64,000 nucleotides of DNA from NCBI RefSeq assembly GCF_024609765.1, contig NZ_JANFDG010000017.1:1-64000 (forward strand). Reading direction: 5' to 3'. The notes under the pieces were generated by a model. That model was given only the letters and a program-made list of their open reading frames with translations. It was not told the DNA's origin and made no database searches. The stretch is from Shinella pollutisoli. Lineage in GTDB: Bacteria > Pseudomonadota > Alphaproteobacteria > Rhizobiales > Rhizobiaceae. Shown piece after piece: positions 2,300 to 20,388 of the stretch (its first letter is position 1; every line of letters starts with the position of its first letter). A program made the translations under genes and the position numbers.

Positions 2300-3487
2300 T
2301 CATTCGACGATCGTCGCGATGCGGAACTTCCGCTTCTCGAGCTCCGGGAAATAGGTCGCCGCATCGAAATAGCTTTCCGGCGCGTGCACCCCGGGCTTCC
2401 TCGGATGGGCGAGGATGAGCTGGGCGGCGATGGAGGCGTTCATCGAGGTGCAGGCGTCGACATAGGGCGCATAGAGCGGATCGGGCGAGACCGTCACCTC
2501 GACGCGCACGGTGCGCGCCACCCCGTCCTTGCGGCCGCGGCCGATGGCGAAATGGATCTCGTGGCTCTCCTGCGCCGGGATCTTCTCCGCGTTCCTGCGC
2601 ATGTTGCGCTCGATCACCTTGTTCAGCACGTCGAGCGGCTTCACCCTGACGCCGCCGATCGTGACCGGCTCGTCGAAATCGCCGAAGCCGGCCTTGACCA
2701 GCCCTACCCATGCCTCGTGCTCGCGGTGCGGCAGGTGCAGCTTCCAGGAGAATTCCCGGATGCCCTTCTCGCGGATGCCGTCGGCGAGCGGCACGGTGAG
2801 CTGCTCGGAATGGGGCGAATGCATGAACTCGCAGCGCCCCCAGGGCTCCGGCAGATCGAGGAACTCGCGGCCGCTCATCGGCGGGCATTCGACATGCTTT
2901 CCGTCATAGAACTGCGTGCTCGGATGGGCGTATTCGGCGAGCACCGTCGAGACGCTGTAGGGCGGCACCAGCACCGGGTTCTCCTCGCCGGTGAGCTCGG
3001 CCGCCCAGTAGAGGTTGATCCGGTCGATCTCGTCCAGCTGGTCGGCGACAGCCCGGCAGATGACGTTCGACATGCCCGGGTCGGCGCCGCAGCCGATGAC
3101 GGCGGCAACGCCCGCCGCCTTGAAACGCTCGTGCTCGGCAAGCTGCTTGACCGTATAGGTGCCGAGTCCGCCGAGGTCCATGTAGGCGACGCGGGCGGCA
3201 AGCGCCGCCGCGAAGATCGCCATCTGGAAGCCGAGCAGCGTCGGCACGCAGTTGATGCAGATATCGGCCCCGGCGATCGCCCGCTCCAGCGCCGCGGCAT
3301 CCGTCACGTCGAGATCGACGAGCGCGATGCGCGGGTCGCCGAGATCGGCCGCCAGCGCCTCCATCTTCTCCCGCGAGGCGTCGCAGAGGCGGATTTCGGC
3401 GATGTCGATAATGGTGCGGTCGGAGACGAGGTCGCGCACGATGCCCGCGCCCATGAAGCCCGCGCCGCCGAGAATAGTGATGATCAT
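2300..3487 (-). CDS. Saccharopine dehydrogenase-like NAD(P)-binding oxidoreductase
   Basis: A 395-residue protein that begins with a Rossmann dinucleotide-binding loop (ILGGAGFMGAGIV, residues 4-16) and continues through the saccharopine-dehydrogenase-like fold (ADICINCVPTLLGFQ, then IGCGADPGMSNV). Family members reduce an imine or split a secondary amine with NAD(P)H, for example saccharopine, homospermidine/carboxyspermidine or opine-like compounds. The residues visible do not fix the substrate. It is the downstream gene of a pair with the aldehyde dehydrogenase (20 nt apart), with AAAGGA before ATG 3487. In an amine-catabolic neighbourhood it could act on an imine formed between an amine and a keto acid. 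The family call is firm; the reaction is unknown. Confidence 0.82.
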   Translation of the reverse strand: MIITILGGAGFMGAGIVRDLVSDRTIIDIAEIRLCDASREKMEALAADLGDPRIALVDLDVTDAAALERAIAGADICINCVPTLLGFQMAIFAAALAARVAYMDLGGLGTYTVKQLAEHERFKAAGVAAVIGCGADPGMSNVICRAVADQLDEIDRINLYWAAELTGEENPVLVPPYSVSTVLAEYAHPSTQFYDGKHVECPPMSGREFLDLPEPWGRCEFMHSPHSEQLTVPLADGIREKGIREFSWKLHLPHREHEAWVGLVKAGFGDFDEPVTIGGVRVKPLDVLNKVIERNMRRNAEKIPAQESHEIHFAIGRGRKDGVARTVRVEVTVSPDPLYAPYVDACTSMNASIAAQLILAHPRKPGVHAPESYFDAATYFPELEKRKFRIATIVE

Positions 3488-3506
3488 CGGTCTTTCCTTT
3501 GTCTGT

Positions 3507-5012
3507 TCAGGCGTGCTTGCGCCCGCCGTCCTCGTAGAACCAGTCGTCCGGGTAGGGATACCACCAGTCCTGCACGACCGGCTTGTGGTCGATGATGACC
3601 ATCTTCGAGCGGCGGAAGGTATCGAGGCCGAGGCGGGAGAGCTCGCGGCCGAGGCCGGATTTCTTCCAGCCGCCGAAGGGCAGCGCGTCGTTGTCGATCA
3701 GCGGGTTGTTGACCCAGACCATGCCGGCCTCCAGCCGCTCGGCCGCCTCCATCGCCTCCTCCAGCGACGTGGTGAAGATCGAGGCGCCGAGGCCGAACGC
3801 GCTGTCGTTCGCCCGCGCGATCGCCTCGTCGAAATCGGCAACCCGCATGATCGCCGCGACCGGGCCGAAGCACTCCTCGCGCAGGATCGCCATGTCCGGC
3901 GTGCAGTCCGTCAGGATCGTCGGCTCGTAGAACCAGCCGACCGGCTCGCTTTCCGGGATCTTTCCGCCGGTGACGACGGTCGCACCCTTCGCCGTCGCAT
4001 CCTCCACCAGCCGCATGACCTTCGCCCGCGCCGCCTCGCTGACGAGCGGGCCGATCTCGGCGCGGGAAAGGCCGTTGCCGATCCGAAGCCGCCGCGTCTC
4101 GGCGGCGAATTTCTCGACGAAGGCGTCGTGCACGGCGTCGACCACGAAGAAACGCTCGGCCGAGGTGCAGACCTGGCCGGACATGTGGAAGGCGGCGGTG
4201 ACGGCGCCGGCGGCGGCCACGTCGAGCGGCGCATGCGCCGTCACGATCAGCGGGTCGGAGCCGCCCGCCTCGATCACCGCCGGCTTCATCTCGGCCGCTG
4301 CGGCCATCGCCACCGCACGGCCCGCCGCGACCGAGCCGGTGAAGGCGACGGCATGCGTCTTCGGCGAGGCGATGAGGGCTGCCGCAAGCTCCGCGCCGCC
4401 CGGCAGGCAGGCGATCAGCCCCTCCGGCAACGCCTCGAACACCTCCATGAACTTGAGCGTCGACAGCGTTGTGGCCGGCGCCGGCTTGACGATGCAGGCG
4501 TTGCCGGAGGCGAGCGAGGCGGCCACCGTCCAGCACATCAAGAGGATCGGGAAGTTGAACGGCATGATGTGCACGCTCACCCCCAGCGCCTCGTAGCGGG
4601 CGTGCTGGAAGGAGCCGGCCTGCGTCGTGCCGGCCACCTTGCCGGCCTCGTCGCGCGCCATCTCGGCGAAATAGCGGAAGGCGCCGGCGCAGTTCGCCAC
4701 CTCGCCGATCGCCTCCGGATAGGGTTTTCCCATCTCGCGCGACATCAGCTCGGCGCAGCGGCGCATGTCCGTCGCCTCGATGCGGGTTGCGATGCGGTGG
4801 AGGACGGTGGCGCGGCTCTTGGCGTCGAGGCGCTTCCAGGCCGTCTGCGCGGCGGTCGCCGCGTCGAGCGCCGCCTCCATCTCGGCCGGCGTCGTGTCGG
4901 CGATGGCGCCGACGGCGACGAGCCGCGCCGGATCGGTCACCGCATGGCGCCGGCCGGCGCTCGGGACATAGGCCGGGTGCCGGTAGTGCACGGGATCGGC
5001 GGGGTCGAACAT
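3507..5012 (-). CDS. NAD(P)-dependent aldehyde dehydrogenase
   Basis: A 501-residue member of the aldehyde dehydrogenase superfamily, which oxidises aldehydes to acids. The catalytic cysteine lies in SGQVCTSAERFF, the general-base glutamate in VIEAGGSDPLIV, and the late conserved block EECFGPVAAIM is present. The length is normal for the family. The sequence style is closer to succinate-semialdehyde / acyl-aldehyde dehydrogenases than to the second dehydrogenase of the region at 14189. ATG 5012 is preceded by GAAGGAAGAG. It is followed after 20 nt by the saccharopine-dehydrogenase-like gene, and a palindromic repeat separates it from the upstream cupin gene. It probably oxidises an aminoaldehyde or semialdehyde made by the other enzymes of the cluster. 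Confidence 0.9.
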   Translation of the reverse strand: MFDPADPVHYRHPAYVPSAGRRHAVTDPARLVAVGAIADTTPAEMEAALDAATAAQTAWKRLDAKSRATVLHRIATRIEATDMRRCAELMSREMGKPYPEAIGEVANCAGAFRYFAEMARDEAGKVAGTTQAGSFQHARYEALGVSVHIMPFNFPILLMCWTVAASLASGNACIVKPAPATTLSTLKFMEVFEALPEGLIACLPGGAELAAALIASPKTHAVAFTGSVAAGRAVAMAAAAEMKPAVIEAGGSDPLIVTAHAPLDVAAAGAVTAAFHMSGQVCTSAERFFVVDAVHDAFVEKFAAETRRLRIGNGLSRAEIGPLVSEAARAKVMRLVEDATAKGATVVTGGKIPESEPVGWFYEPTILTDCTPDMAILREECFGPVAAIMRVADFDEAIARANDSAFGLGASIFTTSLEEAMEAAERLEAGMVWVNNPLIDNDALPFGGWKKSGLGRELSRLGLDTFRRSKMVIIDHKPVVQDWWYPYPDDWFYEDGGRKHA

Positions 5013-5045
5013 GATACTCTTCCTTCGTTGTCGGAGGGTGGGAAA

Positions 5046-5160
5046 GCCCCCTCACCCTGCCCTCTCCCCGAGGGGAGAGGGAAAGCCGCATATGCCGCCG
5101 CCGCCTCCCCTTCTCCCCGGCGGGGAGAAGGTCGCCCGAAAGGGCCGGATGAGGGGGCGG
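5046..5160. repeat. Palindromic intergenic mosaic element (RIME-like), copy A
   Basis: Begins with CCCCCTCACCCTGCCCTCTC and contains two strong hairpins, CCTCTCCCC/GGGGAGAGG and CCTTCTCCCC/GGGGAGAAGG, followed by a CCGGATGAGGGGG end. The same modules recur in this window at about 5.97, 7.5, 10.44, 21.7 and 55.8 kb, always between genes. The form fits the mosaic elements described in rhizobia, known to me as RIME; the family assignment is by resemblance. Confidence 0.8.
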
Positions 5161-5169
5161 CCCCTTGCC

Positions 5170-5517
5170 TCACCGGATCATGTAGACCTTCTTCACCGTC
5201 TCGTGGACGGTGCATTCGCCCTTCCAGCCCTCAGGGAAGAAGGCGGCGGTGTCGGGGGTGATCTCGATCACCTCGCCGCTTTCGTGCACATAGGTGCAGC
5301 GGCCCTCCAGGAAGTGGCAGAACTCGTCGCGGGTGACGTGGCAGAACCATTTTCCGGGCGTGCATATCCACAGGCCGCATTCGGACCGGCCGTCCGGGCC
5401 CTTGTGGATGACCTTGCCGGAGGTGCGGCTCTCGCCCTCGATCATCGTCGGGATGACGCCCCAGTCCTTGAGGTCGGTCTCCTCGAGCGGCTTGCGCATC
5501 AGCGGGGTGGCGGTCAT
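5170..5517 (-). CDS. Cupin-domain protein (cupin 1 of a tandem pair)
   Basis: A 115-residue single-domain cupin. The beta-barrel motifs are seen as GLWICTPGKWFCHVTRDEFCHFLEG and later FFPEGWKGECTVHE. The same pattern (W.CTPG.W, RDEFCHF, PEGWKGECTV) characterises the small cupins related to EutQ/ureidoglycine aminohydrolase-type proteins (DUF861-like). Metal binding by the His and Glu residues of the first motif is plausible. The next gene upstream, at 5539, is a paralogue. ATG 5517 has GAAAGGA upstream. The function is unknown; it may be an isomerase, a deaminase or a binding protein for an intermediate of the amine/sugar pathway around it. Confidence 0.82.
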   Translation of the reverse strand: MTATPLMRKPLEETDLKDWGVIPTMIEGESRTSGKVIHKGPDGRSECGLWICTPGKWFCHVTRDEFCHFLEGRCTYVHESGEVIEITPDTAAFFPEGWKGECTVHETVKKVYMIR

Positions 5518-5538
5518 GGGATGTCCTTTCTCTGCCGG

Positions 5539-5901
5539 TCAGGCCAGCATGTAGATGTTGCGCATGGTCTCGATGACGGTGCATTCGCCGGTCCAGCCGG
5601 CGGGGAACATCACCGCCGTTCCGGCCTCGACCTCGATCACCTCGCCCGTATCCGAGCGGTAGACCGCCCGGCCCGCCACGAAATGGCAGAACTCGTCGCG
5701 CGGGATCGACAGCCGCCAGCGGCCGGGCGTGCAGACCCAGATGCCCGTTTCCGGCCGGTTGTCCGGTCCCTTGTGCAGGAGCCGGCCGGAGGAATGCGAC
5801 TGCCCTTCGAGGCAATCCGGCTGGTCGCCCCAGTCGACGAGGCCGGCGAAGGTGGTGGCGTTGTGGATGTGCGGCGCCGAGGATTTCAGGGTGGCGGTCA
5901 T
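5539..5901 (-). CDS. Cupin-domain protein (cupin 2 of a tandem pair)
   Basis: A 120-residue cupin that shares the complete pattern of its downstream neighbour: GIWVCTPGRW, RDEFCHFVAG, VMFPAGWTGECTV and a final IYMLA versus VYMIR. It is therefore a tandem duplicate separated by 21 nt. The ATG at 5901 is chosen because MTATLK matches the MTATPL start of the paralogue and a GAGGGGG ribosome site precedes it; an in-frame ATG farther upstream (5967) lies in repeat DNA. The two copies may form a heteromer or act on successive intermediates. No biochemical function can be read from the sequence. Confidence 0.82.
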   Translation of the reverse strand: MTATLKSSAPHIHNATTFAGLVDWGDQPDCLEGQSHSSGRLLHKGPDNRPETGIWVCTPGRWRLSIPRDEFCHFVAGRAVYRSDTGEVIEVEAGTAVMFPAGWTGECTVIETMRNIYMLA

Positions 5902-5904
5902 GGC

Positions 5905-6122
5905 GATACCCCCCTCTGGCCTGCCGGCCATCTCCCCCTCAACGGCAAGGCTATCGCATATGGGCATGGCCCCTCATCCGGCCTGCCGGCCACCTTCTCC
6001 CCGCAAGCGGGGAGAAGGAAATTTGCCGCGCCGTTTTCCCGGACCCGTACCCTCTCGTTGGGCACGTCCCCTCTCCCCGCTTGCGGGGAGAGGGTTAGGG
6101 TGAGGGGCAAAACCATATGCGA
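5905..6122. repeat. Composite mosaic repeat (half element plus copy B)
   Basis: The left part (about 5908-5937) is half of the CCCCTCTGGCCTGCCGGCCATC-type module that is complete at 40.9 kb. Next, AAGGCTATCGCATAT (5947-5961) and ATATGCGA (6115-6122) bound copy B, which contains CCTTCTCCCC/GGGGAGAAGG and CCTCTCCCC/GGGGAGAGG hairpins. The first of these ends is the same as the terminal repeat of copy D at 10.44 kb. The internal part is nearly identical to copy C at 7.5 kb. No gene is seen here. Confidence 0.8.
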
Positions 6123-6165
6123 CCGCCCTGTCTTCGAGGGGGGAGATGGATGGAGGGGGTGAGCG

Positions 6166-7461
6166 TCACGCACCGGCATAGCTCCCCGTCCGCACCAGCT
6201 CATCGAGGATGCCGGCGGCCTTTTGCGGGCCGTTGCGGGCCTGCATGTGCGCGCTGGTGGCGGCAAGCTTCGCCTTCATCGCCGGGTCGTTGATGCAGGT
6301 TTCGAGCTTCGCGGCGAGGTCGGCGTCGGTCCAGTCGTAGCGCGGCATCTTGAAGCCGTGGCCGGTCTCGTCGACGCGGGTCGCATTGTCGTGGCCGTCC
6401 CAGACATAGGGCATGATGATCGCCGGCTTGCCGAAATAGAGGCATTCCGTGAACGAGTTGTTGCCGCCGTGATGGATGACGGCGTCGACCTGCGGGATGA
6501 CGGAGGGCTGCGGGAACCAGCTGTCGATGATGACGTTGCCGGGCAGATCGCCATACTCGCCCATGTAGTCGCCGACATTGACGAGGGCGCGATAGGGCAG
6601 CTTGCCGATGGTGACGATCAGGCGCTTGAGCAGCCCCGTGTCGCCGGCCCCGAGCGAGCCGAAGGAGATGTAGATCAGCGGCTTGTCGTTGTTTGCGGCG
6701 AAGGTCGGCACCTCGTAGGGCTTCTCCTTGCGCACGCAGCCTTCGAGATACTGGAATCGCTTCGGATCGAGCGGATGCGCGCGCTCGAACTTCACCGGCT
6801 CCGGATAGAGCAGCAGGTTCATGAAGGGCGAGGCTTCGAAGAACTGGCCGATCGGATAGGCCGCCTCGCCGCATTCCGCAAGGAAGCCGTTGAAATCGTC
6901 GTGGATCGGCTTGATGACCTCGTTGAAGCGGTCGCGATAGGCCTGGTGGCAGGAAAAATCCTTCTCGCCGCAGCCGGAGAGATGCGGCGGGATCTTCGGG
7001 TCCTCGATCTCGTTCTCCGAGCAGGAGATGATGCGCACCCAGGGCTTGCCGAAGCGCTTGATCGCCGGGAAGAGGATGACGTTGTCGACGCAGATGAGGT
7101 CCGGCGAAATCTTCGCCAGCACGCCGGGCAGGTCCTTCTCCGCCCATTTGGCGCTGTCGACGATCGCCGTCCAGCAGTCCTTCACGTAGTTGTCGATCTG
7201 GTCGTAGGGCGACTTGCGGAAGTTCGGGATGTGGCCGTTGATGAAGTCCTCCCAGAACTTCGCCATCTGCTCGGGCGGCATCGGCTCGGAGAGGTTCACG
7301 GGATGCGCCTCGAAGCCGTAGCCCTCGTAGACGGAGACGAAGCCGGGGTCGGAGAGGAAGACGGCCCTGTGGCCCAGCGCCTCCACGGCCTGGGCGATGC
7401 CGACGGAGTTGAGCGCCGGGCCGAAGGCCGCTTCCGGGAAGAATGCGATGGTCTTTGACAT
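6166..7461 (-). CDS. UGT/MGT-like glycosyltransferase (paralogue 1)
   Basis: A 431-residue GT-B glycosyltransferase of the UDP-glucuronosyl/macrolide-transferase type. The donor-binding half shows SFGSLGAGDTGLLKR and the HHGG loop (VIHHGGNNSFTECLYFGKPA, then MPYVWDGHDNATR). The N-terminal acceptor half begins KTIAFFPEAAFGPALNSVG. It should transfer a sugar from a nucleotide donor to a small acceptor in the cytoplasm. The gene at 12875-14170 is a paralogue of the same length that shares most motifs, including LSGCG and DPSPW/EASPF regions. The ATG at 7461 is preceded by AGGGGAACACC; longer frames run into repeat DNA. A glycosyltransferase inside an amine-transport and oxidation cluster is unusual. 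Confidence 0.88.
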   Translation of the reverse strand: MSKTIAFFPEAAFGPALNSVGIAQAVEALGHRAVFLSDPGFVSVYEGYGFEAHPVNLSEPMPPEQMAKFWEDFINGHIPNFRKSPYDQIDNYVKDCWTAIVDSAKWAEKDLPGVLAKISPDLICVDNVILFPAIKRFGKPWVRIISCSENEIEDPKIPPHLSGCGEKDFSCHQAYRDRFNEVIKPIHDDFNGFLAECGEAAYPIGQFFEASPFMNLLLYPEPVKFERAHPLDPKRFQYLEGCVRKEKPYEVPTFAANNDKPLIYISFGSLGAGDTGLLKRLIVTIGKLPYRALVNVGDYMGEYGDLPGNVIIDSWFPQPSVIPQVDAVIHHGGNNSFTECLYFGKPAIIMPYVWDGHDNATRVDETGHGFKMPRYDWTDADLAAKLETCINDPAMKAKLAATSAHMQARNGPQKAAGILDELVRTGSYAGA

Positions 7462-7499
7462 GGTGTTCCCCTGTTTTCTCGATATCGGTGTTGCCGGCT

Positions 7500-7640
7500 G
7501 CCCCTCATCCGGCCTGCCGGCCACCTTCTCCCCGTAAACGGGGAGAAGGAAATTTGCCGCATCGCTTTCCCAACCCATGACCCTTTCGCAGGGCAAGTCC
7601 CCTCTCCCCGCTTGCGGGGAGAGGGCTAGGGTGAGGGGCG
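7500..7640. repeat. Palindromic intergenic mosaic element (RIME-like), copy C
   Basis: Starts GCCCCTCATCCGGCCTGCCG and ends AGGGCTAGGGTGAGGGGC. It has two hairpins, CTTCTCCCCGT/ACGGGGAGAAG and CCTCTCCCCGC/GCGGGGAGAGG. It is almost the same as copy B (5970-6113) over its whole length, which implies recent duplication of the element. It separates the glycosyltransferase from the ABC ATPase gene. Confidence 0.82.
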
Positions 7641-7659
7641 GAGGCGGGTATGCGGTGTC

Positions 7660-8721
7660 TCATGGTGTATCCCCCGAAAAGACCCGGCATTTGGCCGGGT
7701 CGATCTTGAGGCTCAGCGCATCGCCGATCCGCCACGTCGCGGTGCCGGCGGGCACGCGCACCTGCAGCGGCGTCCCGGCGGCGGCGGTCTGGACGTGCAG
7801 CACCCGGTCGAGGCCGTGATAGGCGATGTCGGCGACGGTGCCGGCAAGCCGCTCGCCGGGCGGGCCGACGGCGACGTTTTCCGGCCGCACGGCAAGCGTC
7901 GCCGGGCCGGGCTTCGCATCGACGAGCGCCAGCCGCAGCCCCTCCGCCTCGAAGATGCCGTCCGCGCCGACCTTGCCCTCGACGAAGTTCATGACGCCGA
8001 TGAAATTGGCGACGAAGCGGTCGGCCGGCCGCTCGTAGATCTCCTCCGGCGCGCCGACCTGCAGCAGCCTGCCGTCACGCAGGATCGCCATGCGGTCGGC
8101 CATCACCAGCGCCTCCTCCTGGTCGTGGGTGACGATGACGAAGGTGATGCCGGCCTCGTGCTGCATGCGCTTCAGCTCGAGCTGCATTTTTTCGCGCAGC
8201 TTCTTGTCGAGCGCGCCGAGCGGTTCGTCGAGCAGCAGCACCTTCGGCCGCTTGACCAGCGCGCGGGCGAGCGCCACGCGCTGCTTCTGGCCGCCGGAAA
8301 GCTGGTCGGGCTTGCGGCCCGCGAAGGGCGTGAGGTCGGTCATCGCCATGGTCTCGTCGACGCGGCGGATAATCTCCGCCTTGGCGAGCCGTTCCATTTC
8401 CAGCCCGTAGGAAAGGTTCTGCCGCACCGTCATGTGCGGGAACAGCGCGTAGGACTGGAACATCAGGTTGAGCGGGCGCTTTTCCGGCGGCAGCGGCGAG
8501 ATGTCGTTGCCGTCGAGCAGGATGCGGCCGGCGCTCGGGCTCTCGAAGCCGGCGAGCATGCGCAGGAGCGTGGTCTTGCCGCAGCCGGAGGGGCCGAGCA
8601 GCGCGAAGAACTCGTTCTCGCGGATGTCGAGGCTGACGCCATCGACGGCCGTCACCGGGCCGAAGGTCTTTGCGACCCCCTCGATGCGCAGGATCGGTGC
8701 CGGGCTGGTCGGTTCTGTCAT
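7660..8721 (-). CDS. potA: Polyamine-type ABC transporter, ATP-binding protein
   Basis: A 353-residue ABC ATPase of the spermidine/putrescine (PotA/PotG) type that energises uptake through the two permeases encoded just upstream. Walker A is GPSGCGKTT, the signature is LSGGQKQR, Walker B is VLLLDEPLGALD, and the C-terminal TOBE region (LAVRPENVAV) is present. The start at 8721 is preferred because its ATG overlaps the stop of the permease gene (ATGA at 8718-8721), giving translational coupling; an in-frame start 27 nt upstream is possible. It is the last gene of potD-potB-potC-potA on this strand. The substrate class is known for the family; the actual ligand is not proven. Confidence 0.92.
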   Translation of the reverse strand: MTEPTSPAPILRIEGVAKTFGPVTAVDGVSLDIRENEFFALLGPSGCGKTTLLRMLAGFESPSAGRILLDGNDISPLPPEKRPLNLMFQSYALFPHMTVRQNLSYGLEMERLAKAEIIRRVDETMAMTDLTPFAGRKPDQLSGGQKQRVALARALVKRPKVLLLDEPLGALDKKLREKMQLELKRMQHEAGITFVIVTHDQEEALVMADRMAILRDGRLLQVGAPEEIYERPADRFVANFIGVMNFVEGKVGADGIFEAEGLRLALVDAKPGPATLAVRPENVAVGPPGERLAGTVADIAYHGLDRVLHVQTAAAGTPLQVRVPAGTATWRIGDALSLKIDPAKCRVFSGDTP

Positions 8722-9509
8722 GGGACGTGCTGTTCCCTGTTGAGCCATTGCGAGAGCAGGAGCGCGGTGGCGCTGACGCCCATGACGAGGGTGGCGAGCG
8801 CGTTGATCTCCGGCGTGATGCCGAAGCGGATCATCGAATAGATCTGCATCGGCAGCGTCATCGAGGCGCGGCCCGTGCCCGCCGTGAAGAAGGCGATGAT
8901 GAACTCGTCCACCGAGAGCGTGAAGGCGAGCAGGCCGCCCGCGACGATCGCCGGCAAGAGCACCGGAAAGGTGATGCGCCAGAAGGTCGTCCAGCCCGAG
9001 GCGCCGAGATCGCGCGAGGCCTCGACGATGGAGAAGTCGAAATGCTTGAGCCGCGCGCGCACCACCGAGCAGACGAAGGCGAGGTCGAAGATGACGTGGC
9101 TGACGACGATCGTGTGCAGGCCCATGGCGACGGAAAGCCGCGAGAAGAAGGTCAGCAGCGCCACCGCGAGCACGATGTCGGGAATGACCATCGGCGCGAA
9201 GGCGAGCGCTTCGAGGCCGCTGCTCTTCCTGCGCCGCGTCTCCATGCCGAGCGCCAGCAGCGTGCCGAGCACGGTGGAGATGAGGGTGGCAAAGACGGCG
9301 ACGACCAGCGTGTTCCAGGCGGCGCGCAGGATGTCGGTGTTGTTGAGCAATGCGCCGTACCAGCGCGTCGAGAAGCCGGACCAGGAGGTGGGAAGCCCGC
9401 TGGCGTTGAAGGAGAGCAGCACGAGCACGGCGATCGGCAGGTAGAGGAAGCCGAAGACGAGGAGAAGGACGATCCGCCCCGGCAGCTTTTGGCGAAAGGC
9501 GGCGCTCAT
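8718..9509 (-). CDS. potC: Polyamine-type ABC transporter, permease (PotC/PotI type)
   Basis: A 263-residue inner-membrane permease with several hydrophobic segments, the first of which is IVLLLVFGFLYLPIAVLVLL. The EAA coupling loop reads VEASRDLGASGWTTFWRITF. It pairs with the PotB-type permease to form the channel and contacts the ATPase through the EAA loop. ATG 9509 overlaps the upstream permease stop by 4 nt (ATGA), and its own stop overlaps the ATPase start by 4 nt, so the three genes are translationally coupled. Length and motifs are normal for the family. Confidence 0.92.
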   Translation of the reverse strand: MSAAFRQKLPGRIVLLLVFGFLYLPIAVLVLLSFNASGLPTSWSGFSTRWYGALLNNTDILRAAWNTLVVAVFATLISTVLGTLLALGMETRRRKSSGLEALAFAPMVIPDIVLAVALLTFFSRLSVAMGLHTIVVSHVIFDLAFVCSVVRARLKHFDFSIVEASRDLGASGWTTFWRITFPVLLPAIVAGGLLAFTLSVDEFIIAFFTAGTGRASMTLPMQIYSMIRFGITPEINALATLVMGVSATALLLSQWLNREQHVP

Positions 9510-10372: not shown

Positions 10373-10436
10373 TGCGAAGGCTCCGGCGGGGCCGCGTTCC
10401 GCGCCCGCCCGTTGTCAGTTAAAGGGTAAATCCCTT

Positions 10437-10647: not shown

Positions 10648-10666
10648 ACGGGAGGAAGGCCGCGTG

Positions 10667-11825: not shown

Positions 11826-11936
11826 GTCAATAGGCCGGGCTCGAATTTTATGCGCATCGCGGATTTCGCTATCGCCGGCCTTGCGAAACGCCTGCGCAAA
11901 GGGCAGCATGCGCGGTGATGGAGGGCCGAGGCGGCG

Positions 11937-12869: not shown

Positions 12870-12874
12870 TCCCC

Positions 12875-14170
12875 ATGGCGTCTGCAAAGACCATCGCCCT
12901 CTTTCCCGAAGCGAGCTACGGCGCGGCGCTGAACTGCGTCGGCATCGCCCAGGAACTGCGGCGCATGGGCCACCGCCCGGTCTTCGTCTGCCATCCGGGC
13001 TTCGGCGGCGTCTTTTCCGAATACGGCTTTCCCGAATATCCGCTGGCCGACGCCGAGGCGGGCCGGCCCACCGACTGGAACGACTTCATCGAGCGCCACC
13101 AGGACGCCTTCCGCCAGTCGCCCCTCGACCAGATCGAGAGCTATGTCGAGCCCACCTGGGAGGCGATCGTCGACACGGCGATGCGGGTGGAGGAGCCGCT
13201 CCGGCAATTGCTCGCCCGGCTGAAGCCGGACGCCGTCGTGCTCGACAACGTGGTGATGTTCCCGGCGGTCGCCAATGCCGGCGCGCCCTGGGTGCGCGTC
13301 GTCTCCTGCGCCGAGACGGAGATCCCCGACGCGGACGTGCCGCCCTATCTCTCCGGCTGCGGCATGGACGAGCGCGAATGCTGGCCGGCCTTCGCCGCCC
13401 GCTACGAGAAGGCGGTGGCGCCCGCCCACCGGCGCTTTGCCGCCTTCCTCGCCGAATGCGGCGTGAAAGCCCCCGCCGCGCCGAACTTCCTCGACCCTTC
13501 GCCCTGGCTCAACCTGCTGCTCGCACCCGAGATCATCCGCCACGCGCGCCGCCGGCCGCTCGATCCGGAAAAATTCGTCTTCCTCGACGGCTGCGTGCGC
13601 AGCGAGGCGCCCTATACGCCGCCGCGCTTCGCCAGCCACAACGACGCGCCGCTGGTGCTGACGAGCTTCGGCTCGCTCGGCGCGATGGACGTGGAGATGA
13701 CGAAGCGGATGATCGCCGTCTTCGCGCGGCTGCCCTGCCGCTTCCTCGTCAATGCCGGCCACTGGCGCGAGGACTATCGCGAGGTGCCGGACAATGTCTT
13801 CATCGACAGCTGGTTCCCGCAGCCGTCCGTGGTCGAGCAGGCCGATCTCTTCATCCACCACGGCGGCAACAATTCCTTCTGCGAGGCGCTCTATTACGGC
13901 GTGCCGTCGCTGATCATGCCCTATTGCTGGGACGGCCATGACAACGCCGTGCGTGCCGACGAGACGGGCGTCGGCCGTCGCCTCGACCGCTACGGCTGGA
14001 GCGAGGCGGAGCTCGAAGGCGCGATCCGCGCGCTGCTCGGCGACGTGGCGATGCGGCAAAGGCTGAAGGCCAATGCGGAGAAGATGCGCAAGGCGGCGGG
14101 GGTGACGCGCGCGGCGGAGGAAATCGTCAAGGTCGCGGCCGGCGCGCTCAGTGCCGTGCGCGCGTCGTAA
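12875..14170 (+). CDS. UGT/MGT-like glycosyltransferase (paralogue 2)
   Basis: A 431-residue GT-B glycosyltransferase, the same length as paralogue 1 at 6166-7461. Shared landmarks include KTIALFPEASYGAALNCVGI, YLSGCG, TSFGSLGAMD, DSWFPQPSVVEQ and FIHHGGNNSFCEALYYG. The HHGG loop binds the nucleotide sugar. The ATG at 12875 lies 5 nt after the regulator stop, so the two genes are coupled; the open frame continues upstream but overlaps the regulator. An aldehyde dehydrogenase follows after 18 nt. Two such enzymes on either side of one transporter suggest that the substrate or a product is glycosylated, perhaps at two positions or with two sugars. Confidence 0.88.
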   Translation: MASAKTIALFPEASYGAALNCVGIAQELRRMGHRPVFVCHPGFGGVFSEYGFPEYPLADAEAGRPTDWNDFIERHQDAFRQSPLDQIESYVEPTWEAIVDTAMRVEEPLRQLLARLKPDAVVLDNVVMFPAVANAGAPWVRVVSCAETEIPDADVPPYLSGCGMDERECWPAFAARYEKAVAPAHRRFAAFLAECGVKAPAAPNFLDPSPWLNLLLAPEIIRHARRRPLDPEKFVFLDGCVRSEAPYTPPRFASHNDAPLVLTSFGSLGAMDVEMTKRMIAVFARLPCRFLVNAGHWREDYREVPDNVFIDSWFPQPSVVEQADLFIHHGGNNSFCEALYYGVPSLIMPYCWDGHDNAVRADETGVGRRLDRYGWSEAELEGAIRALLGDVAMRQRLKANAEKMRKAAGVTRAAEEIVKVAAGALSAVRAS

Positions 14171-14188
14171 AACATCGGGAGAAGGCGA

Positions 14189-15670
14189 ATGCGCGACAGG
14201 CTCTTCATCGACGGCAAATGGGTGGCTCCGGCCAAGGGCGGCACGTTCACGGTAATCGATCCCGCCACCGAGGCGGTCGTCCACCAGGCGCCCGCCGGCA
14301 CGGGGGAGGATATCGACGCGGCGGTCGCCGCCGCCCGCCGTGCCTTCGACGAGGGACCGTGGCGAAAAATGTCCGGCAGGGAGCGCGCCGCCGTGCTGCG
14401 CCGCGTCAGTGACCTCATCCTCGTCCGCAGGCAGGAGCTCGCCCGCCTGGAGGTGATCGACAACGGCAAGCCGCTGCCGGAGGCCGTCTGGGACATGGAG
14501 GACACGGCCGGCTGCTTTGCCTTCTATGCCGGCCTCGCCGAGGAGATGGACGACAATCCGGAAGAGGCGATCCCGCTCGCCGAGCCGCGCTTCTCCTCGA
14601 AGGTCGTGCGCGAGCCGGTCGGCGTGGCGGGGGCGATCATCCCGTGGAACTACCCGCTGCTGATGGCCTCGTGGAAGGTGGCCCCGGCGCTCGCCGCCGG
14701 CTGCACCATGGTGCTGAAGCCCTCGGAACTCACGCCGCTTACGGCATTGGAACTCGGTGCCATCGTCGCGGAGGCGGGGCTTCCGGCGGGCGTGCTCAAC
14801 ATCGTCACCGGCCTCGGGCCCGATGCCGGCCGACCGCTTTCCGAGCATCCCGGCATCGACAAGCTCGCCTTCACCGGCTCGGTGCCGACGGGCGCGAAGA
14901 TCATGGCGGCGGCGGCGCGCGACATCAAGAACGTCAGCCTGGAGCTCGGCGGCAAGTCGCCCTTCGTCGTCTTCGCCGACAGCGACATCGACAAGGCCGT
15001 CGAATGGATCATGTTCGGCATCTTCTGGAACCAGGGCCAGGTCTGCTCGGCGACCTCGCGCGTGCTGGTGGAGGAGAGCCTCTATCCGGCGCTCCTCGAA
15101 AGGCTCGTTGCCGAATCGGCGAAGATCCGCATCGGCAACGGGCTGGAGGACGGTACGCTGCTCGGTCCTCTCGTCTCGAAGGGGCAGTACGACAAGGTGC
15201 TGGCGGCGATCGAGCGCGGCAAGGCGGAAGGCGCCACGGTCGCCGGCGGCGGGCGGCGACCGGCCGGTCTCAACACCGGCTATTTCCTCGAGCCGACGAT
15301 CCTCACCGACATGCCGGAGACGAGCGCCGTCTGGACGGAGGAGATTTTTGGCCCCGTCGTCTGCGTGAAGCCTTTCCGCGACGAGGCGGAGGCGATCCGC
15401 ATGGCCAACGACAGCCGCTTCGGGCTCGCCGCCGCCGTCATGTCGAAGGACCGCGCGCGGTGCGAGCGTGTGGCGAAGGCCTTCCGCGCGGGCATCGTCT
15501 GGATCAACTGCTCGCAGCCGACCTTCACCGAGGCGCCGTGGGGCGGCTACAAGCAGTCCGGCATCGGCCGCGAGCTCGGCCGCTGGGGCCTTTCGAACTA
15601 TCTGGAGGTGAAGCAGATCACCGCCTTCGAGAGCGACGAGCCCTGGGGCTGGTACATCAAGCCGGCCTGA
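14189..15670 (+). CDS. Betaine-aldehyde / aminoaldehyde-type dehydrogenase
   Basis: A 493-residue aldehyde dehydrogenase. The cofactor and catalytic blocks are IIPWNYPLLMASWKVAPAL, VSLELGGKSPFVVF (general base) and WNQGQVCSATSR (catalytic cysteine). The C-terminal APWGGYKQSGIGRELGRWGL is also typical. The NQGQVCSATSR version is characteristic of betaine-aldehyde and omega-aminoaldehyde dehydrogenases, which act on 3-aminopropanal or 4-aminobutanal from polyamines. It lies in the regulator-led operon, 18 nt after the glycosyltransferase. It differs clearly from the other dehydrogenase at 3507, so the pathway probably contains two different aldehyde oxidation steps. Confidence 0.9.
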   Translation: MRDRLFIDGKWVAPAKGGTFTVIDPATEAVVHQAPAGTGEDIDAAVAAARRAFDEGPWRKMSGRERAAVLRRVSDLILVRRQELARLEVIDNGKPLPEAVWDMEDTAGCFAFYAGLAEEMDDNPEEAIPLAEPRFSSKVVREPVGVAGAIIPWNYPLLMASWKVAPALAAGCTMVLKPSELTPLTALELGAIVAEAGLPAGVLNIVTGLGPDAGRPLSEHPGIDKLAFTGSVPTGAKIMAAAARDIKNVSLELGGKSPFVVFADSDIDKAVEWIMFGIFWNQGQVCSATSRVLVEESLYPALLERLVAESAKIRIGNGLEDGTLLGPLVSKGQYDKVLAAIERGKAEGATVAGGGRRPAGLNTGYFLEPTILTDMPETSAVWTEEIFGPVVCVKPFRDEAEAIRMANDSRFGLAAAVMSKDRARCERVAKAFRAGIVWINCSQPTFTEAPWGGYKQSGIGRELGRWGLSNYLEVKQITAFESDEPWGWYIKPA

Positions 15671-15840: not shown

Positions 15841-17082
15841 ATGGGCGCAACCGGATTTCTCGACACGGCCTGGCGCAAGCGGGAGTATCACCGGCAATGG
15901 CTCGGCCAAGAGGCGAACCGCCTGTTCGACTTCTTCCAGAACCGCAGCTTCAACCCGCTCGGCGGCTTCCACGAGCTCGACGCCGAGGGCCGGCCGATCA
16001 ATCCGGGCAATCCGGTGCGCGGCATCCATTCCACCGCGCGCATGGTGCATTGCTTTGCCATCGGCAGCCTGCTCGGCCGCCCCGGTTCCGACGCCATCGT
16101 CGACCACGGCATGCGCTATCTCTGGGAGAAGCACCGCGACCACGAGCGCGGCGGCTACCACTGGTCGCTCGACAATGCCGGCCTGCTCGATGCGACGAAG
16201 CAGGGCTACGGCCACGCCTTCGTGCTGCTCGCCGCCTCCTCCGCCAAGGTCGCCGGCCATCCCGACGCCGACCGCATGATCGCCGACGTCACCGAGGTCC
16301 TGGAAACCCGCTTCTGGGAGGAGGAGCACGGGGCGATCGCCGAGGAGTTCGAGGCCGACTGGACGCCGGTGCCCGGCTATCGCGGCCAGAACTCCAATAT
16401 GCATCTCACCGAGGCGCTGATGGCGGCCTACGAGGCGACCGGCGAGAAGGCCTATCTCGACAAGGCCGAGCGCATCGCCGACCTCGTCATCCGCCGCCGC
16501 GCCGGCGAGAACGGTTTCCGCGTGCCGGAGCATTTCGACGAGGACTGGGTGCTCGACAAGGACTACCGCGGCAACGAGATGTTCCGCCCCTCCGGCACCA
16601 CGCCCGGCCACTGGCTGGAATGGGCGCGGCTCGTCCTGCAGCTCCACGTGCTCGGCGGCAGGAAGCACGACTGGATGCCGGAGGCGGCAAAGGCCCTCTT
16701 CGCCCAGGCGGTCGCGCTCGGCTGGGACAAGGAGAAGGGCGGCTTCTTCTACACGCTCGACTGGGACGACGCGCCCGCCAAGCGCCAGAAGCTCTGGTGG
16801 CCGATGGCGGAGGGCGCGGGTGCCGCCGCCTTCCTCTGCGAGCACGCCCCCGGCGAATTCCACGAGACCTGGTACCGGCGGATCTGGGACGGGATCGCCC
16901 GCCATTTCCTCGACCAGGACCGCGGCGGCTGGCACGAGGAGCTGACCGAGGACCTCGTGCCGAGCTACACGCTCTTCGCCGGCAAGGGCGACATCTACCA
17001 TGCGCTCCAGGCCTGCCTCATCCCGCTCTATCCGGCGACGGGCAGCCTGACGCGGGTGATCGTCGAGGCCGGCGGCCGTTGA
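15841..17082 (+). CDS. AGE-family sugar epimerase/isomerase
   Basis: A 413-residue protein of the N-acylglucosamine 2-epimerase / mannose isomerase / YihS family, (alpha/alpha)6-barrel enzymes that interconvert aldoses and ketoses or epimerise C2 of hexoses. Family landmarks are STARMVHCFAIGSLL, GGYHWSLDNAGLLDATKQGY, GYGHAFVLLAAS, SNMHLTEALMAAYE and LWWPMAEGAGAAAF. The ATG at 15841 is preceded by GAGGAG; an ATG 30 nt upstream in frame has a weaker signal. It follows the aldehyde dehydrogenase by 170 nt without a clear terminator. A sugar-converting enzyme next to two glycosyltransferases supports a glycosylated substrate; the sugar is not predictable. Confidence 0.88.
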   Translation: MGATGFLDTAWRKREYHRQWLGQEANRLFDFFQNRSFNPLGGFHELDAEGRPINPGNPVRGIHSTARMVHCFAIGSLLGRPGSDAIVDHGMRYLWEKHRDHERGGYHWSLDNAGLLDATKQGYGHAFVLLAASSAKVAGHPDADRMIADVTEVLETRFWEEEHGAIAEEFEADWTPVPGYRGQNSNMHLTEALMAAYEATGEKAYLDKAERIADLVIRRRAGENGFRVPEHFDEDWVLDKDYRGNEMFRPSGTTPGHWLEWARLVLQLHVLGGRKHDWMPEAAKALFAQAVALGWDKEKGGFFYTLDWDDAPAKRQKLWWPMAEGAGAAAFLCEHAPGEFHETWYRRIWDGIARHFLDQDRGGWHEELTEDLVPSYTLFAGKGDIYHALQACLIPLYPATGSLTRVIVEAGGR

Positions 17083-17513: not shown

Positions 17514-17520
17514 CACATTT

Positions 17521-17614
17521 CAGGGCATTTCCAGCCGAAGCGAGGTCGCTTCGGCGTTGGACAATGCGGCAAAGACAGGAACTCAGAGCATTTCCGGTTC
17601 ACCGGAAATGCTCC
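17521..17614. repeat. Hairpin-rich leader / likely interspersed repeat
   Basis: Two perfect inverted repeats: CCGAAGCGA/TCGCTTCGG (17535-17543 / 17546-17554) and 13-bp arms starting GAGCATTTCCGGT (17586-17598 / 17601-17613, loop TC). The order GCATTTCCAGCCGAAG ... AGAGCATTTCCGG resembles an intergenic repeat that I recognise loosely from other alphaproteobacteria. The second hairpin ends 16 nt before the aminotransferase ATG, so it can also affect translation initiation. Confidence 0.6.
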
Positions 17615-17629
17615 AGGCGGGAGAACGGG

Positions 17630-19003
17630 ATGGAGAGGTCGGCTCTGGAAGCGCGCGCCCGCGCGCTCATCGAGGCGGAGGCGGAGGTTTTTCGCGAGAG
17701 GCGGCCGCGCTCGGCGGCGGCGCATGACGAGACCCGCTCGGGCTTCTTCGACGGCGTGCCGCAGCACTGGATGCTCGACTGGCCGACGCCCTTCCCGGTG
17801 GTGATCGAGGAGGCGCACGGCGCCGAGCTCGTCGACATCGACGGCAACCGCATCGTCGACCTCTGCCTCGGCGATACCGGCGCGATGTTCGGCCATGGCC
17901 CCGCCCCCGTGCTGGAGGCATTGAAGAACGCCGGCACGCGCGGCCTCACCACCATGCTTCCCTCCTCCGATGCGCAGGCCGTCGGCCGTCTGCTGGTCGA
18001 GCGCTTCGGCCTGCCGCGCTGGCAGCTCGCGGCGACGGCGAGCGATGCCAACCGCTTTTCCATCCGCGTCGCCCGCGCCGTCACCGGCCGGGCGAAGCTC
18101 CTCGTCTTCGACGGCTGCTACCACGGCGCGGTGGACGACACGCTGGTCGACCTCATCGACGGGAAAACCGTCTCGCGCCGCAATCTGCTCGGCCAGGTGC
18201 GCGACCTCGGCGAGCTCACCGTCTCCATTCCCTTCAACGACGAGAAAGCCCTTGCCGCCGCACTCGCCTCGCACGAGATCGCCTGCGTGCTCGCCGAGCC
18301 GGTCATGACCAATTGCGGCATGATCCCGCCCGCTCCGGGTTTCCACGACGCGCTGCGCCGGCTCACCCGCGAAGCCGGCACGCTGCTCCTCATCGACGAG
18401 ACGCACACGATCTCCACCGGCCTCGGCGGCTATACGAAGGTGCACGGCCTCGAACCCGACCTGATGGTGATGGGCAAGCCGATCGGCGGCGGCGTGCCCG
18501 TCAGCGTCTGGGGCATGACGCAGGAAATCTCCGACCGCCTGCACGTCATCCGCCGCGAGCAGAGCGGCCACGGCCATTCCGGCATCGGCACGACGCTCTC
18601 CGGCAGCGCGCTCCAGCTCGCCTGCCTGCGCGCCTGCCTCGAACACGTCATGACCGAGGAGGCCTACCGCACCATGCTCGCCCGCGCCGACCGAATCGAG
18701 GCGGGCTTCAAGGCGGCGATCGCCGATGCCGGGCTCGACTGGACGGTCAGCCGCGTCGGCGCGCGGCTCGAAGTGGTGTTTTCGCCCGAGCCGGTGAAGA
18801 ATGCCGCCGAGGCGCGCGCGGCCGCTTCCGACACGATCGAGGCGGCGCTGCACCTCTCCATGCTCAATCTCGGCTACCTGCTGACGCCGTTCCACAACAT
18901 GGTGCTCGTCAGCCCGGCGCTCACCGAGACGCAGGCGGACGGGCTGGTCGCGGCCTTCGCCGCCGTGCTCGGCCGGCTCGCCGAGCGGAGGGCCGCCGCG
19001 TGA
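17630..19003 (+). CDS. Class III PLP-dependent aminotransferase
   Basis: A 457-residue class III aminotransferase with similarity in form to glutamate-1-semialdehyde aminomutases. Visible motifs are the VFDGCYHGAVDD loop, the PLP-binding aspartate in LLIDETHT, and the Schiff-base lysine in VMGKPIGGGVP. It would move the amino group between an amine, aminoaldehyde or omega-amino acid and a keto acid. The ATG at 17630 is chosen because it follows GGCGGGAGAACGG and the repeat DNA; the longer frame from 17564 lies in the hairpin region. The stop overlaps the GTG start of the ligase gene by 4 nt. In amine catabolism this position corresponds to the step that removes the amino group after gamma-glutamylation or side-chain oxidation. 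Confidence 0.88.
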   Translation: MERSALEARARALIEAEAEVFRERRPRSAAAHDETRSGFFDGVPQHWMLDWPTPFPVVIEEAHGAELVDIDGNRIVDLCLGDTGAMFGHGPAPVLEALKNAGTRGLTTMLPSSDAQAVGRLLVERFGLPRWQLAATASDANRFSIRVARAVTGRAKLLVFDGCYHGAVDDTLVDLIDGKTVSRRNLLGQVRDLGELTVSIPFNDEKALAAALASHEIACVLAEPVMTNCGMIPPAPGFHDALRRLTREAGTLLLIDETHTISTGLGGYTKVHGLEPDLMVMGKPIGGGVPVSVWGMTQEISDRLHVIRREQSGHGHSGIGTTLSGSALQLACLRACLEHVMTEEAYRTMLARADRIEAGFKAAIADAGLDWTVSRVGARLEVVFSPEPVKNAAEARAAASDTIEAALHLSMLNLGYLLTPFHNMVLVSPALTETQADGLVAAFAAVLGRLAERRAAA

Positions 19004-20388
19004 GCCGCGACCTCGCCGCGCGGCCGGCGGCGGCCGCCGACATCGCCGAGGCCGAAGCCTTCCTCGCCGCCCATCCCGAGATTGACGCCTTCGATCTCGT
19101 GCTGATCGACCTCAACGGCATCGCCCGCGGCAAGATCGTCCGCCGCCACGAGCTCCTGCCGATCTTCCGCTCCGGCCGTCACCTGCCGGGCTCGATCCTC
19201 GGCCTCGACGTCACCGGCGAGGACGTGGACGAGACGGGCCTCGTCTGGGCCGACGGCGATGCCGACCGGCGCGCCTGGCCGGTCGCGGGCTCGCTGGTTC
19301 CGCTCCCCTGGACCTCGCCGCCGCGCGGCGAGGTACGCCTTTCCCTGTTCGAGCTCGACGGCAAGCCGATGGCGGCCGACCCGCGCCGTGCACTGGCGCG
19401 GCAGGTGGCGCTACTGGAAGCCGACGGTTTCCATCCCGTGCTCGCCTACGAACTGGAATTCTACCTGCTCGACCGCGTGCGCGGCGAGGACGGCGGCTTC
19501 CGGCCGCTCAGGCTGCCGCTTTCCGGCGAGCGGCCGAACGGCATCCAGGTCTACGGCGTCAGCGAGCTCGACCGGCTGGAGCCCTTCATCGACGCGGTCT
19601 ATCGCGGCGCGGAGGCGCAGGGCCTGCCGGTGGAGACGATGATCTCCGAATATGCCGAGGGCCAGTTCGAGCTGACGCTGCGCCACGGTACGGCGCTGCG
19701 CGCCGCCGACGACCTCGCCATGCTGAAGCGGCTGATCCGGGCGCTCGCGGTGCGCCACGGCATGATGGCCTGCTTCATGGCAAAACCCTTCGGGGAGCGC
19801 GCCGGCTCCGGCATGCATGTCCATGCGAGCCTTGCGGACGCGGCCGGCGGCAACCTGTTCGCCGATGCGGGCGAGGAGCTCTCGCCGCTGCTCCGTCAGG
19901 CCGTCGCCGGCCTGCTCGCCACCATGGAGGAATCCATGCTGGTCTTCGCGCCGCATCTCAATTCCTGGCGGCGCTTCTCCGCCCAGAGCTATGCGCCGAC
20001 GACGCCAAGCTGGGGGCGCAACAACCGCAGCGTCGCCGTGCGCATCCCCGCCGGCGCCCCGGCCGGCCGGCATCTGGAGCAGCGCGCCGCCGGCATCGAT
20101 TCCAATCCCTATCTGGTCGGCGCGACGGTGCTCGCCGGCATGCGCAAAGGCATCCTCGAAAAGGCCGATCCCGGCCCGGAGACGACGGCCTATGCGGAGA
20201 CCGGCAGCGACGCCCTGCCGCCCGACTGGCGCGGCGCCATCGAGACGGCCGCCCGCTCCTCTTTCCTGAAGGACGCGCTCGGCGCGCGGCTGCACCACGT
20301 CTTCCTCGCCTTGAAGCGGACGGAATATCGCCGCTTCAATGCGGAAGTCACGGCGCTCGAACGCTCGCTCTACGGCGAGGTCGTCTAA
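19000..20388 (+). CDS. Glutamine-synthetase-like amine ligase (PuuA/IpuC type)
   Basis: A 462-residue member of the glutamine synthetase superfamily, ATP-dependent ligases that join glutamate to ammonia or amines. It shows YELEFYLLD, SEYAEGQFELTLRHG, GSGMHVHASL and the phosphate-binding NSWRRF...NRSVAVRIP region. It is like the gamma-glutamylputrescine/isopropylamine ligases rather than a housekeeping GlnA, with no obvious adenylylation-site context. The GTG start at 19000 overlaps the aminotransferase stop (GTGA) and is therefore translationally coupled. With the aldehyde dehydrogenases and aminotransferase it fits a pathway in which an amine is protected by gamma-glutamylation. The amine is unknown. 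Confidence 0.87.
   Translation: MSRDLAARPAAAADIAEAEAFLAAHPEIDAFDLVLIDLNGIARGKIVRRHELLPIFRSGRHLPGSILGLDVTGEDVDETGLVWADGDADRRAWPVAGSLVPLPWTSPPRGEVRLSLFELDGKPMAADPRRALARQVALLEADGFHPVLAYELEFYLLDRVRGEDGGFRPLRLPLSGERPNGIQVYGVSELDRLEPFIDAVYRGAEAQGLPVETMISEYAEGQFELTLRHGTALRAADDLAMLKRLIRALAVRHGMMACFMAKPFGERAGSGMHVHASLADAAGGNLFADAGEELSPLLRQAVAGLLATMEESMLVFAPHLNSWRRFSAQSYAPTTPSWGRNNRSVAVRIPAGAPAGRHLEQRAAGIDSNPYLVGATVLAGMRKGILEKADPGPETTAYAETGSDALPPDWRGAIETAARSSFLKDALGARLHHVFLALKRTEYRRFNAEVTALERSLYGEVV

Follow-up and report, generated by a model that had tools for sequence, protein, structure and literature searches.

The stretch of DNA considered here, 64,000 nucleotides from Shinella pollutisoli (hereafter the window; the genome comprises 5.2 Mb in 79 contigs), carries a divergent cassette of glycosyltransferase, cupin, aldehyde dehydrogenase and transporter genes at 2300-15670. 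A gene list was drawn up by open reading frame calling with third-position G+C, together with Pfam and NCBIfam, and all of the genes named in an earlier note on this DNA were found to be present with their family assignments. The minus-strand run begins with a PotD-like binding protein with an altered ligand pocket (10667-11725, from a profile match and residue comparison) and continues through a PotB-like permease (9506-10372, Pfam/NCBIfam), a PotC-like permease (8718-9509, profile match) and a PotA-like ATPase (7660-8748, Pfam/NCBIfam) to UGT1, a GT1/UGT-like glycosyltransferase of 431 amino acids (6166-7461, profile matches and relatives in structure databases), the Cupin_3 proteins cup1 (5539-5967, with a start near 5901 likely, judged from relatives) and cup2 (5170-5517, EutQ-like, 115 amino acids; both by Pfam), the aldehyde dehydrogenase ALDH1 that partners UGT1 (3507-5012, Aldedh 478 bits) and SDH, a saccharopine-dehydrogenase-like NAD(P) oxidoreductase (2300-3487, Pfam Sacchrp_dh_NADP and _C), which is an optional end to the operon. 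The plus-strand run, by contrast, starts across the divergence at 11726-11936 and consists of a GntR/FCD regulator (11937-12869, winged helix and FCD domain matches), a second glycosyltransferase, UGT2 (12875-14170, profiles and tree), which forms its own clade and is 48-50% identical to UGT1, and an optional second aldehyde dehydrogenase, ALDH2 (14189-15670), 34% identical to ALDH1.

The segment 2300-15670 is a conserved cassette, as is seen from its gene content and linkage in other genomes, and we read it as accessory and horizontally spread. The best 80 of 237 UGT1 relatives in public genomes were taken (the nearest named ones belonging to Rhizobium cremeum, R. daejeonense and Shinella species), so that the resulting set is biased to close kin. 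Four annotated plasmid stretches (L111, L112, L113, L116) and 18 further genome stretches brought this to 102 loci, or 99 distinct loci after removal of repeats (L113 equals L002, L161 equals L035 and L162 equals L073). At least one cupin gene was present at 97 of the 99, the two lacking it (L030 and L073) having a contig end within 340 bases of UGT1, while ALDH1 was present at 87, all four Pot genes at 81, GntR at 76, UGT2 at 76, SDH at 42 and ALDH2 at 40. Among the 75 distinct loci that were fully covered (at least 7.5 kb upstream and at least 4.5 kb downstream of UGT1) these counts were 75 for a cupin, 70 for ALDH1, 66 for PotA-D, 63 each for GntR and UGT2, 31 for SDH and 28 for ALDH2. The core recurs in more than 15 named genera, and so the clustering of its genes is far beyond chance. 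The distribution of strong UGT1 matches is patchy (8 of 20 same-genus, 1 of 16 same-family and 2 of 24 same-order genomes; 13 of 385 genomes in a class sample and 8 of 398 in a phylum sample, our own genome being counted in both). UGT1 was present in 17 of 25 genomes of one genus from another family, and another class, of the phylum, which we read as Pseudomonas, and the architecture is also kept there.

Reciprocal searches of 72,556 plasmid records gave the same picture of linkage. UGT1 found 11 records (10 matches at 60% identity or above and one at 60.0%), and searches with ALDH1 (E <= 1e-120) and cup2 (E <= 1e-20) each returned 11 records, identical to those 11. The PotD-like protein (E <= 1e-70) gave 12 records, nine of them among the 11, and SDH (E <= 1e-60) gave seven, five among the 11 and two (Terrarubrum and Acidisoma) with no annotated glycosyltransferase. 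When 372 genomes of the class were searched with ALDH1 (E <= 1e-165, at most four candidates scored per genome), five matches besides that of our own genome were obtained and all five lay within 1 kb of UGT1. In Streptomyces sp. NBC_01483 and Nonomuraea gerenzanensis, reached through the PotD search, a UGT of 35-36% identity follows PotA, either adjacent or with one opposite-strand gene between, and an aldehyde dehydrogenase gene comes next in Nonomuraea. The order UGT-cupin-ALDH is kept on two haloarchaeal plasmids (L111 15992-21906 and L116 15989-21815), where the genes are about 60% identical to the bacterial ones and in the tree the UGTs fall within the bacterial UGT1s, suggesting that haloarchaea acquired these genes from bacteria. 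A plasmid of Pseudomonas frederiksbergensis also has a broken UGT copy, in three tblastn pieces, within a type VI secretion region (L114 14001-15004).

Between the two divergent runs lies a promoter/operator-like site of 29 bp, TTGACGTATTTTTTTTATAAATAATACTG, which is present as a single copy in the window (11802-11830, minus strand) and was found within the limit of 11 mismatches to that copy in 71 of 75 GntR-PotD intergenic regions (three of the 75 being duplicates). Its consensus is TTGACGTATTTTTTT, about 4 variable positions, and AATA-TACT. In an Acidocella locus (L057) it stands some 27 bases ahead of UGT1, and in our own genome the spaced half-site pattern is found once in exact form and at three other places with one mismatch. 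The regulator has both the winged helix and the FCD domain, and four of its residues, D215, H219, H263 and H285, show at least 97% conservation across 70 sequences. We take these to be the FCD ligands of a metal and a carboxylate effector, and the protein probably senses a carboxylate of the pathway.

The earlier note had drawn a single island from 2300 to 20388 by adding three plus-strand genes, those for an AGE-superfamily protein resembling D-mannose isomerase (15841-17082), a class III aminotransferase (17564-19003) and a glutamine synthetase (GS)-like protein (19000-20388). This single island does not hold, because the right-hand block, made up of the aminotransferase, the GS-like gene and further genes beyond them, occurs in congeners without the cassette and the regulatory site is present only once in the window. 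The aminotransferase was found at 88% identity or above in 17 of 20 same-genus genomes, nine of which lack a strong UGT1, and it accompanies the GS-like gene without the cassette in all five same-genus loci fetched (L185-L189) and apart from the cassette in two more (L190, L191); both genes, once proposed as pathway members, are thus bystanders. Counter to this, the aminotransferase lies within 13 kb of UGT2 in six of the eight cassette-bearing same-genus genomes (within 6 kb in five of the six, and on another contig in the remaining two of the eight), a closeness which we read as one old insertion beside the block. The isomerase is probably a bystander as well and not the sugar-handling part of the pathway that it had been taken for, being present at 5 of the 99 distinct loci and also in three of the five same-genus loci without the cassette, and it was dropped as evidence for sugar handling on the latter ground. 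A loose tie to the cassette is conceivable, since at one locus of another genus (L009, L184), from a genome that lacks the aminotransferase, the isomerase adjoins the cassette. Directly left of the cassette are an agmatinase-family and then a RidA-family gene (407-1924); neither was found at any of the 99 related loci (thresholds of 50% and 40% identity respectively), and so they are probably unrelated neighbours. The aminotransferase, the GS-like gene and the agmatinase were accordingly dropped as pathway members, as genes occurring without the cassette or absent at related loci.

Two further features were noted in and beyond the operon. A palindromic intergenic repeat within it has two copies (5969-6108 and 7500-7639, 89% identical) and was met at at least 41 other places in the genome, among 309 candidates of which part were scored, and with so many copies elsewhere it is a dispersed repeat element. 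A tRNA-Gly(gcc) was predicted at 25048-25136 on the plus strand inside a minus-strand ftsK-like gene (23059-25563), and this is possibly a false prediction or an overlap. An Rfam scan of 1-26000 gave no match, and the idea of an RNA element in the region was dropped.

All four transporter subunits match PotABCD/PotFGHI models and all fall below the equivalog cut-offs, PotA being just above the cut-off of the polyamine-ATPase subfamily TIGR01187. In the excerpts of PMC11414716 and PMC8666671 that we used, E. coli PotD is described as holding spermidine by E36, D168, E171 and D257 together with W34, Y37, W229 and W255. Our alignment of PotD-like proteins (84 rows from 81 distinct loci) has E36 replaced by Gly, D168 by Thr and E171 by Trp in every row, so that three of the four acidic contacts are gone and only D257 is kept; Q327 is replaced by Leu or Met and Y85 by Pro or Gln. 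Every row retains W34, Y37, S83, W229, D257 and Y293, and 83 rows retain W255; the position of T35 is Asp in 68 of 84, an Asp that might stand in for E36. The pocket reads as one in which a single amine or ammonium contact is kept and the distal one lost, and the loss of three acidic contacts suggests that the ligand is probably not a polyamine. A relative of 47% identity in Rhizobium etli Mim1 (L175 1-18960), also reached by the PotD search of plasmid records, has no glycosyltransferase annotated within 9 kb, its neighbours being choline-dehydrogenase-like, molybdopterin, ETF and DMSP-lyase-like genes.

These residues bear on the plainest explanation of the locus, that of an ordinary polyamine operon of the PuuABCDE type with unrelated sugar genes nearby. 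A PotABCD-type transporter, a PotA over the polyamine-ATPase cut-off, an aldehyde dehydrogenase and, in some lineages, GS-like or DAO genes would all be expected of such an operon, but across lineages the operon itself includes the UGT and cupin genes, only one of the four acidic residues that contact polyamines is left in the pocket, and the GS-like gene and aminotransferase of the window are bystanders, all of which makes this explanation very improbable. The suggestion in the earlier note that the locus handles amines has fared better in part, in that GS-like, DAO-type and amine-oxidase-type enzymes join the cassette in other lineages, while its polyamine version is probably wrong in view of the pocket.

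UGT1 and UGT2 stand on opposite sides of a branch with support of 100/100 in a tree of 61 rows, and were compared in an alignment of 182 rows (103 UGT1 and 79 UGT2, six rows stemming from three repeated loci). The PSPG-like UDP-sugar motif is complete in the residues that we take to bind the donor, Q318, H331, GGNN, E339, D355 and N359 being present in all 182 rows and W315 in 181, and because this motif is kept both proteins are likely to bind a UDP-sugar. In plant and bacterial GT1 enzymes a loop His is catalytic, forming a dyad with an Asp. The dyad Asp, D126, is at least 97% conserved in our rows but the His is absent from both UGTs, the loop reading mostly PEAAFGPALN in UGT1 (Pro15 in 102 of 102 rows with a residue there) and PEAS(F/Y)GAALN in UGT2 (Ala15 in 79 of 79). 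In all 182 rows the donor motif has D-G in place of D-Q, and E10 is kept in every row that has a residue at that position. The nearest solved structures, mite UGT203A2 (7lvy) and UGT202A2, both have the loop His and D-Q; three actinobacterial homologues keep D-Q, and the two of these with a complete start share the His-less loop. Mite UGT genes were acquired horizontally, and with spider-mite enzymes as the closest structures to UGT1, the bacterial clade described here may lie close to the origin of those genes.

It could be argued from these replacements that the UGT-like proteins have no transfer activity and act as UDP-sugar-dependent sensors, or as scaffolds for the cupins and ALDH1. The invariant Pro or Ala in place of His, the Gly in place of the donor Gln and the pairing with a cupin at all 75 fully covered loci would fit such a role, which we nevertheless regard as quite unlikely given that the other donor-binding positions and D126 are kept and that E10, wherever present, could be the base.

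The pairing of UGT and cupin persists in loci without ALDH1 or Pot genes (for example L147, L148 and L152), making the cupins the closest partner of the UGT. A predicted structure of cup2 (mean predicted local distance difference test score, pLDDT, 95.8) is almost all beta. Metal cupins carry the motif HxH...E...H; no His is invariant among 36 cupins of the cassette, in which E65 and C67 are invariant. Most likely the cupins work on the glycosylated product or activate the UGT. Of the 395 positions of SDH, 205 show conservation of 97% or more among 42 sequences, duplicates kept. On a Terrarubrum flagellatum plasmid (L173 2947-12843) an SDH of 65% identity adjoins an aldehyde dehydrogenase 67% identical to ALDH2 and 32% to ALDH1. 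Beside the pair are genes for a Pot-type transporter, a monooxygenase of the NtaA/DmoA family, a flavin reductase and a PucR regulator, and no glycosyltransferase is annotated there; this is a related but different amine route. SDH and ALDH2 are thus a pair also found without an annotated glycosyltransferase, and look like a separate sub-unit that may be shared with other amine routes. A ring-opening route resembling what we take to be that for trigonelline, prompted by luciferase-like monooxygenases in L057, L173 and L174, was not supported, as the L057 and L173 enzymes are just 35% identical, and no such monooxygenase was found at the other UGT loci whose neighbours were scanned.

Amine-type enzymes join the cassette at a minority of the 99 loci, namely GS-like proteins at 15, DAO flavoenzymes at 16 (12 + 4) and amine oxidases at three, the last with a PuuR-like helix-turn-helix-cupin regulator nearby, and at one locus (L154) ALDH1 and two UGTs have as neighbours an OYE-type flavoprotein, an Fe-S/ETF fusion and a GCV_T protein. 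As these partners differ by lineage, several nitrogen compounds or entry steps may feed one core. A protein of 300-313 amino acids closes the operon after the DAO gene in L151 (14839-15777), L153, L155 and L156; nothing in Pfam matches it, and no relative in the PDB scored below E 0.2.

A clue to the fate of the sugar comes from the interval between cupin and ALDH1. In the 89 loci with both UGT1 and ALDH1, two from Acidocella have no cupin on the ALDH1 strand. In the remaining 87 (85 distinct) ALDH1 has a cupin upstream, and the gap does not exceed 500 bp in 76 of the 87 (74 of the 85 distinct; median 90). Ten of the 11 wider gaps hold a gene for an AmgK-like kinase (L015, L036, L038, L047, L049, L050 and L157-L160), the eleventh being the odd arrangement in L154. 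These kinases are 43-91% identical within the set and 34-39% identical to the other AmgK-like protein of our own genome, all ten have the motifs RD[FY]HVDN and DFQD, and the NCBIfam score is 243 bits, under the cut-off of 500. AmgK is presented, in the portion of PMC5371407 that we drew on, as an anomeric kinase making MurNAc/GlcNAc alpha-1-phosphate. Two of the kinase loci (L049 and L050) have an aldose-1-epimerase too. In the haloarchaea Natrialba magadii and Natronorubrum aibiense, ALDH1 is followed by a ROK gene on the opposite strand and then by a phosphohexomutase gene on the ALDH1 strand; the nearest model to the Natrialba ROK protein is glucokinase, below its cut-off, and the mutase is annotated as phosphoglucomutase or as of the phosphoglucomutase/phosphomannomutase family. 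Either the AmgK-like kinase or the ROK protein with the mutase could yield a sugar-1-phosphate.

That unrelated enzymes beside ALDH1 could give the same product is the main ground for the reading which we tentatively put first, in which the cassette is catabolic and a sugar serves as a recyclable protecting tag for a nitrogen compound. The Pot-type importer would take up a nitrogen compound, small and cationic, of which one charged group is recognised and which would not be a polyamine. UGT1, with UGT2 acting on the same or a related compound, would then use a UDP-sugar to glycosylate the substrate or the first intermediate. The cupin or cupins would act directly on the UGT product or together with it, amine oxidation (DAO-type, amine-oxidase-type, GS-assisted or SDH-like, by lineage) with ALDH1 and ALDH2 would convert the tagged compound to a carboxylate, and the sugar would be freed and recharged by way of the sugar-1-phosphate. 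We infer these steps and their order, and the substrate, the sugar and the activity of each enzyme are predictions from sequence. Taken in its most specific form, with a His-less UGT loading the sugar carrier, a non-metal cupin acting, an aldehyde dehydrogenase oxidising and sugar-1-phosphate returned by two unrelated enzyme solutions in bacteria and haloarchaea, this proposal of nitrogen-compound catabolism is doubtful.

The same sugar-handling genes could instead serve the uptake and breakdown of a ready-made glycosylated amine, the UGTs working in reverse or trans-glycosylating, the aldehyde dehydrogenases and flavoenzymes oxidising the aglycone and a kinase salvaging the sugar. The Trp at E171 of the PotD-like protein (84 of 84 rows) could stack on a ring, and sugar kinases, with an aldose-1-epimerase at two loci, do join the operon. 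However, there are two UGTs and yet no recurring glycosidase, a 1-kinase, or a kinase with a hexose-phosphate mutase, points to nucleotide-sugar synthesis and not to glycolysis, and a UGT in reverse would give UDP-sugar directly, leaving the kinase superfluous; we think this rather unlikely. The alternative offered by the earlier note, that glycosylation stores or detoxifies an amine or its aldehyde with the glycoside as end product, we judge unlikely too. Conjugation is the best-known activity of UGT-like enzymes, mite UGT203A2 and UGT202A2 are the closest solved structures, and some genomes retain the UGT-cupin pair alone, all in keeping with such a role; set against it are the importer and oxidases in one divergent unit with no exporter within the conserved cassette, the partners that might recharge the sugar, and the conserved candidate metal ligands of the GntR/FCD regulator. 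The importer, the two aldehyde dehydrogenases and the possible sugar-1-phosphate partners fit catabolism better than storage or detoxification.

Several observations nonetheless weigh against catabolism with a recyclable sugar tag. In an even sample of the class, comprising 12 UGT1-bearing genomes besides our own (L145-L156, two of whose contigs stop within 5.3 kb upstream), a cupin accompanies UGT1 in 12 of 12, ALDH1 in only 5 and Pot genes in only 4, and L062 and L076 likewise lack both ALDH1 and Pot. The UGT-cupin pair is therefore able to work without ALDH1 (absent in 7 of 12) or orthologous Pot genes (absent in 8 of 12). It was also expected that the glycosyltransferases would stay beside the transporter in other genomes, and this is borne out near the lineages of the window (PotA-D at 66 of 75 loci, and Pot-UGT in two actinobacteria) but fails farther out in the class, with Pot genes in just those 4 of 12; what stays constant is the UGT-cupin pair, of which the full cassette represents one use. 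At the two actinobacterial Pot-UGT loci tblastn gave no cupin, and no Pot gene is annotated close to a third actinobacterial UGT (L115). The kinase is found at just 10 of the 99 loci, this window not among them, the haloarchaeal case comes from two records, in both of which the ROK gene lies on the opposite strand, and no glycoside hydrolase recurs in the operon, L152 alone having an alpha-amylase-family neighbour. Moreover, transferase activity is not assured, as the catalytic His is absent and the donor Gln is Gly.

The cassette is real and recurrent and, as none of the titles and abstracts listed by our paper searches describes it, apparently undescribed; its extent is well supported and its mechanism is our proposal. 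It spans Rhizobiales and the other class of Pseudomonadota that we read as Pseudomonas and, as UGT-cupin-ALDH, the haloarchaea. Should the sugar-tag proposal be right, it would imply new UGT chemistry without a catalytic His and a role for a family of small non-metal cupins. Compared with the GT1/UGT enzymes, such as mite UGT203A2 (7lvy) and the macrolide glycosyltransferases, the cassette UGTs have the PSPG-like donor motif and the dyad Asp, with near full-length similarity to the mite enzymes, but differ in the loss of His from the catalytic loop and in D-G for D-Q, save in the three aligned actinobacterial homologues. The kinase resembles that of AmgK/MurU peptidoglycan-sugar recycling in its AmgK motifs (10 of 10), but it is placed between cupins and ALDH1, is only 34-39% identical to the AmgK-like protein of our own genome and is not part of the cassette in the window.

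The importer has the same gene set as PotABCD and its four subunits match the PotABCD/PotFGHI models, but the proteins fall short of the equivalog cut-offs and none of the 84 rows keeps E36, D168, E171 or Q327 of E. coli PotD. This serves as a warning that Pot-type transporters annotated as spermidine/putrescine importers can carry other ligands, three of the four contacts being gone in every one of the 84 orthologue rows. PuuABCDE is the gamma-glutamylputrescine pathway, in which glutamate serves as a protecting tag. The cassette is like it in having an importer, amine oxidation and an aldehyde dehydrogenase, with a GS-like ligase and DAO added in some lineages, but its core is UGT-cupin-ALDH, its binding protein is not fitted to polyamines, and in the window it has no ligase or DAO, the GS-like gene there belonging to the cassette-independent block while other GS-like genes are found at 15 of the 99 loci. 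If the sugar does act as a tag, glycosylation would join gamma-glutamylation as a carrier of reactive amine intermediates in catabolism.

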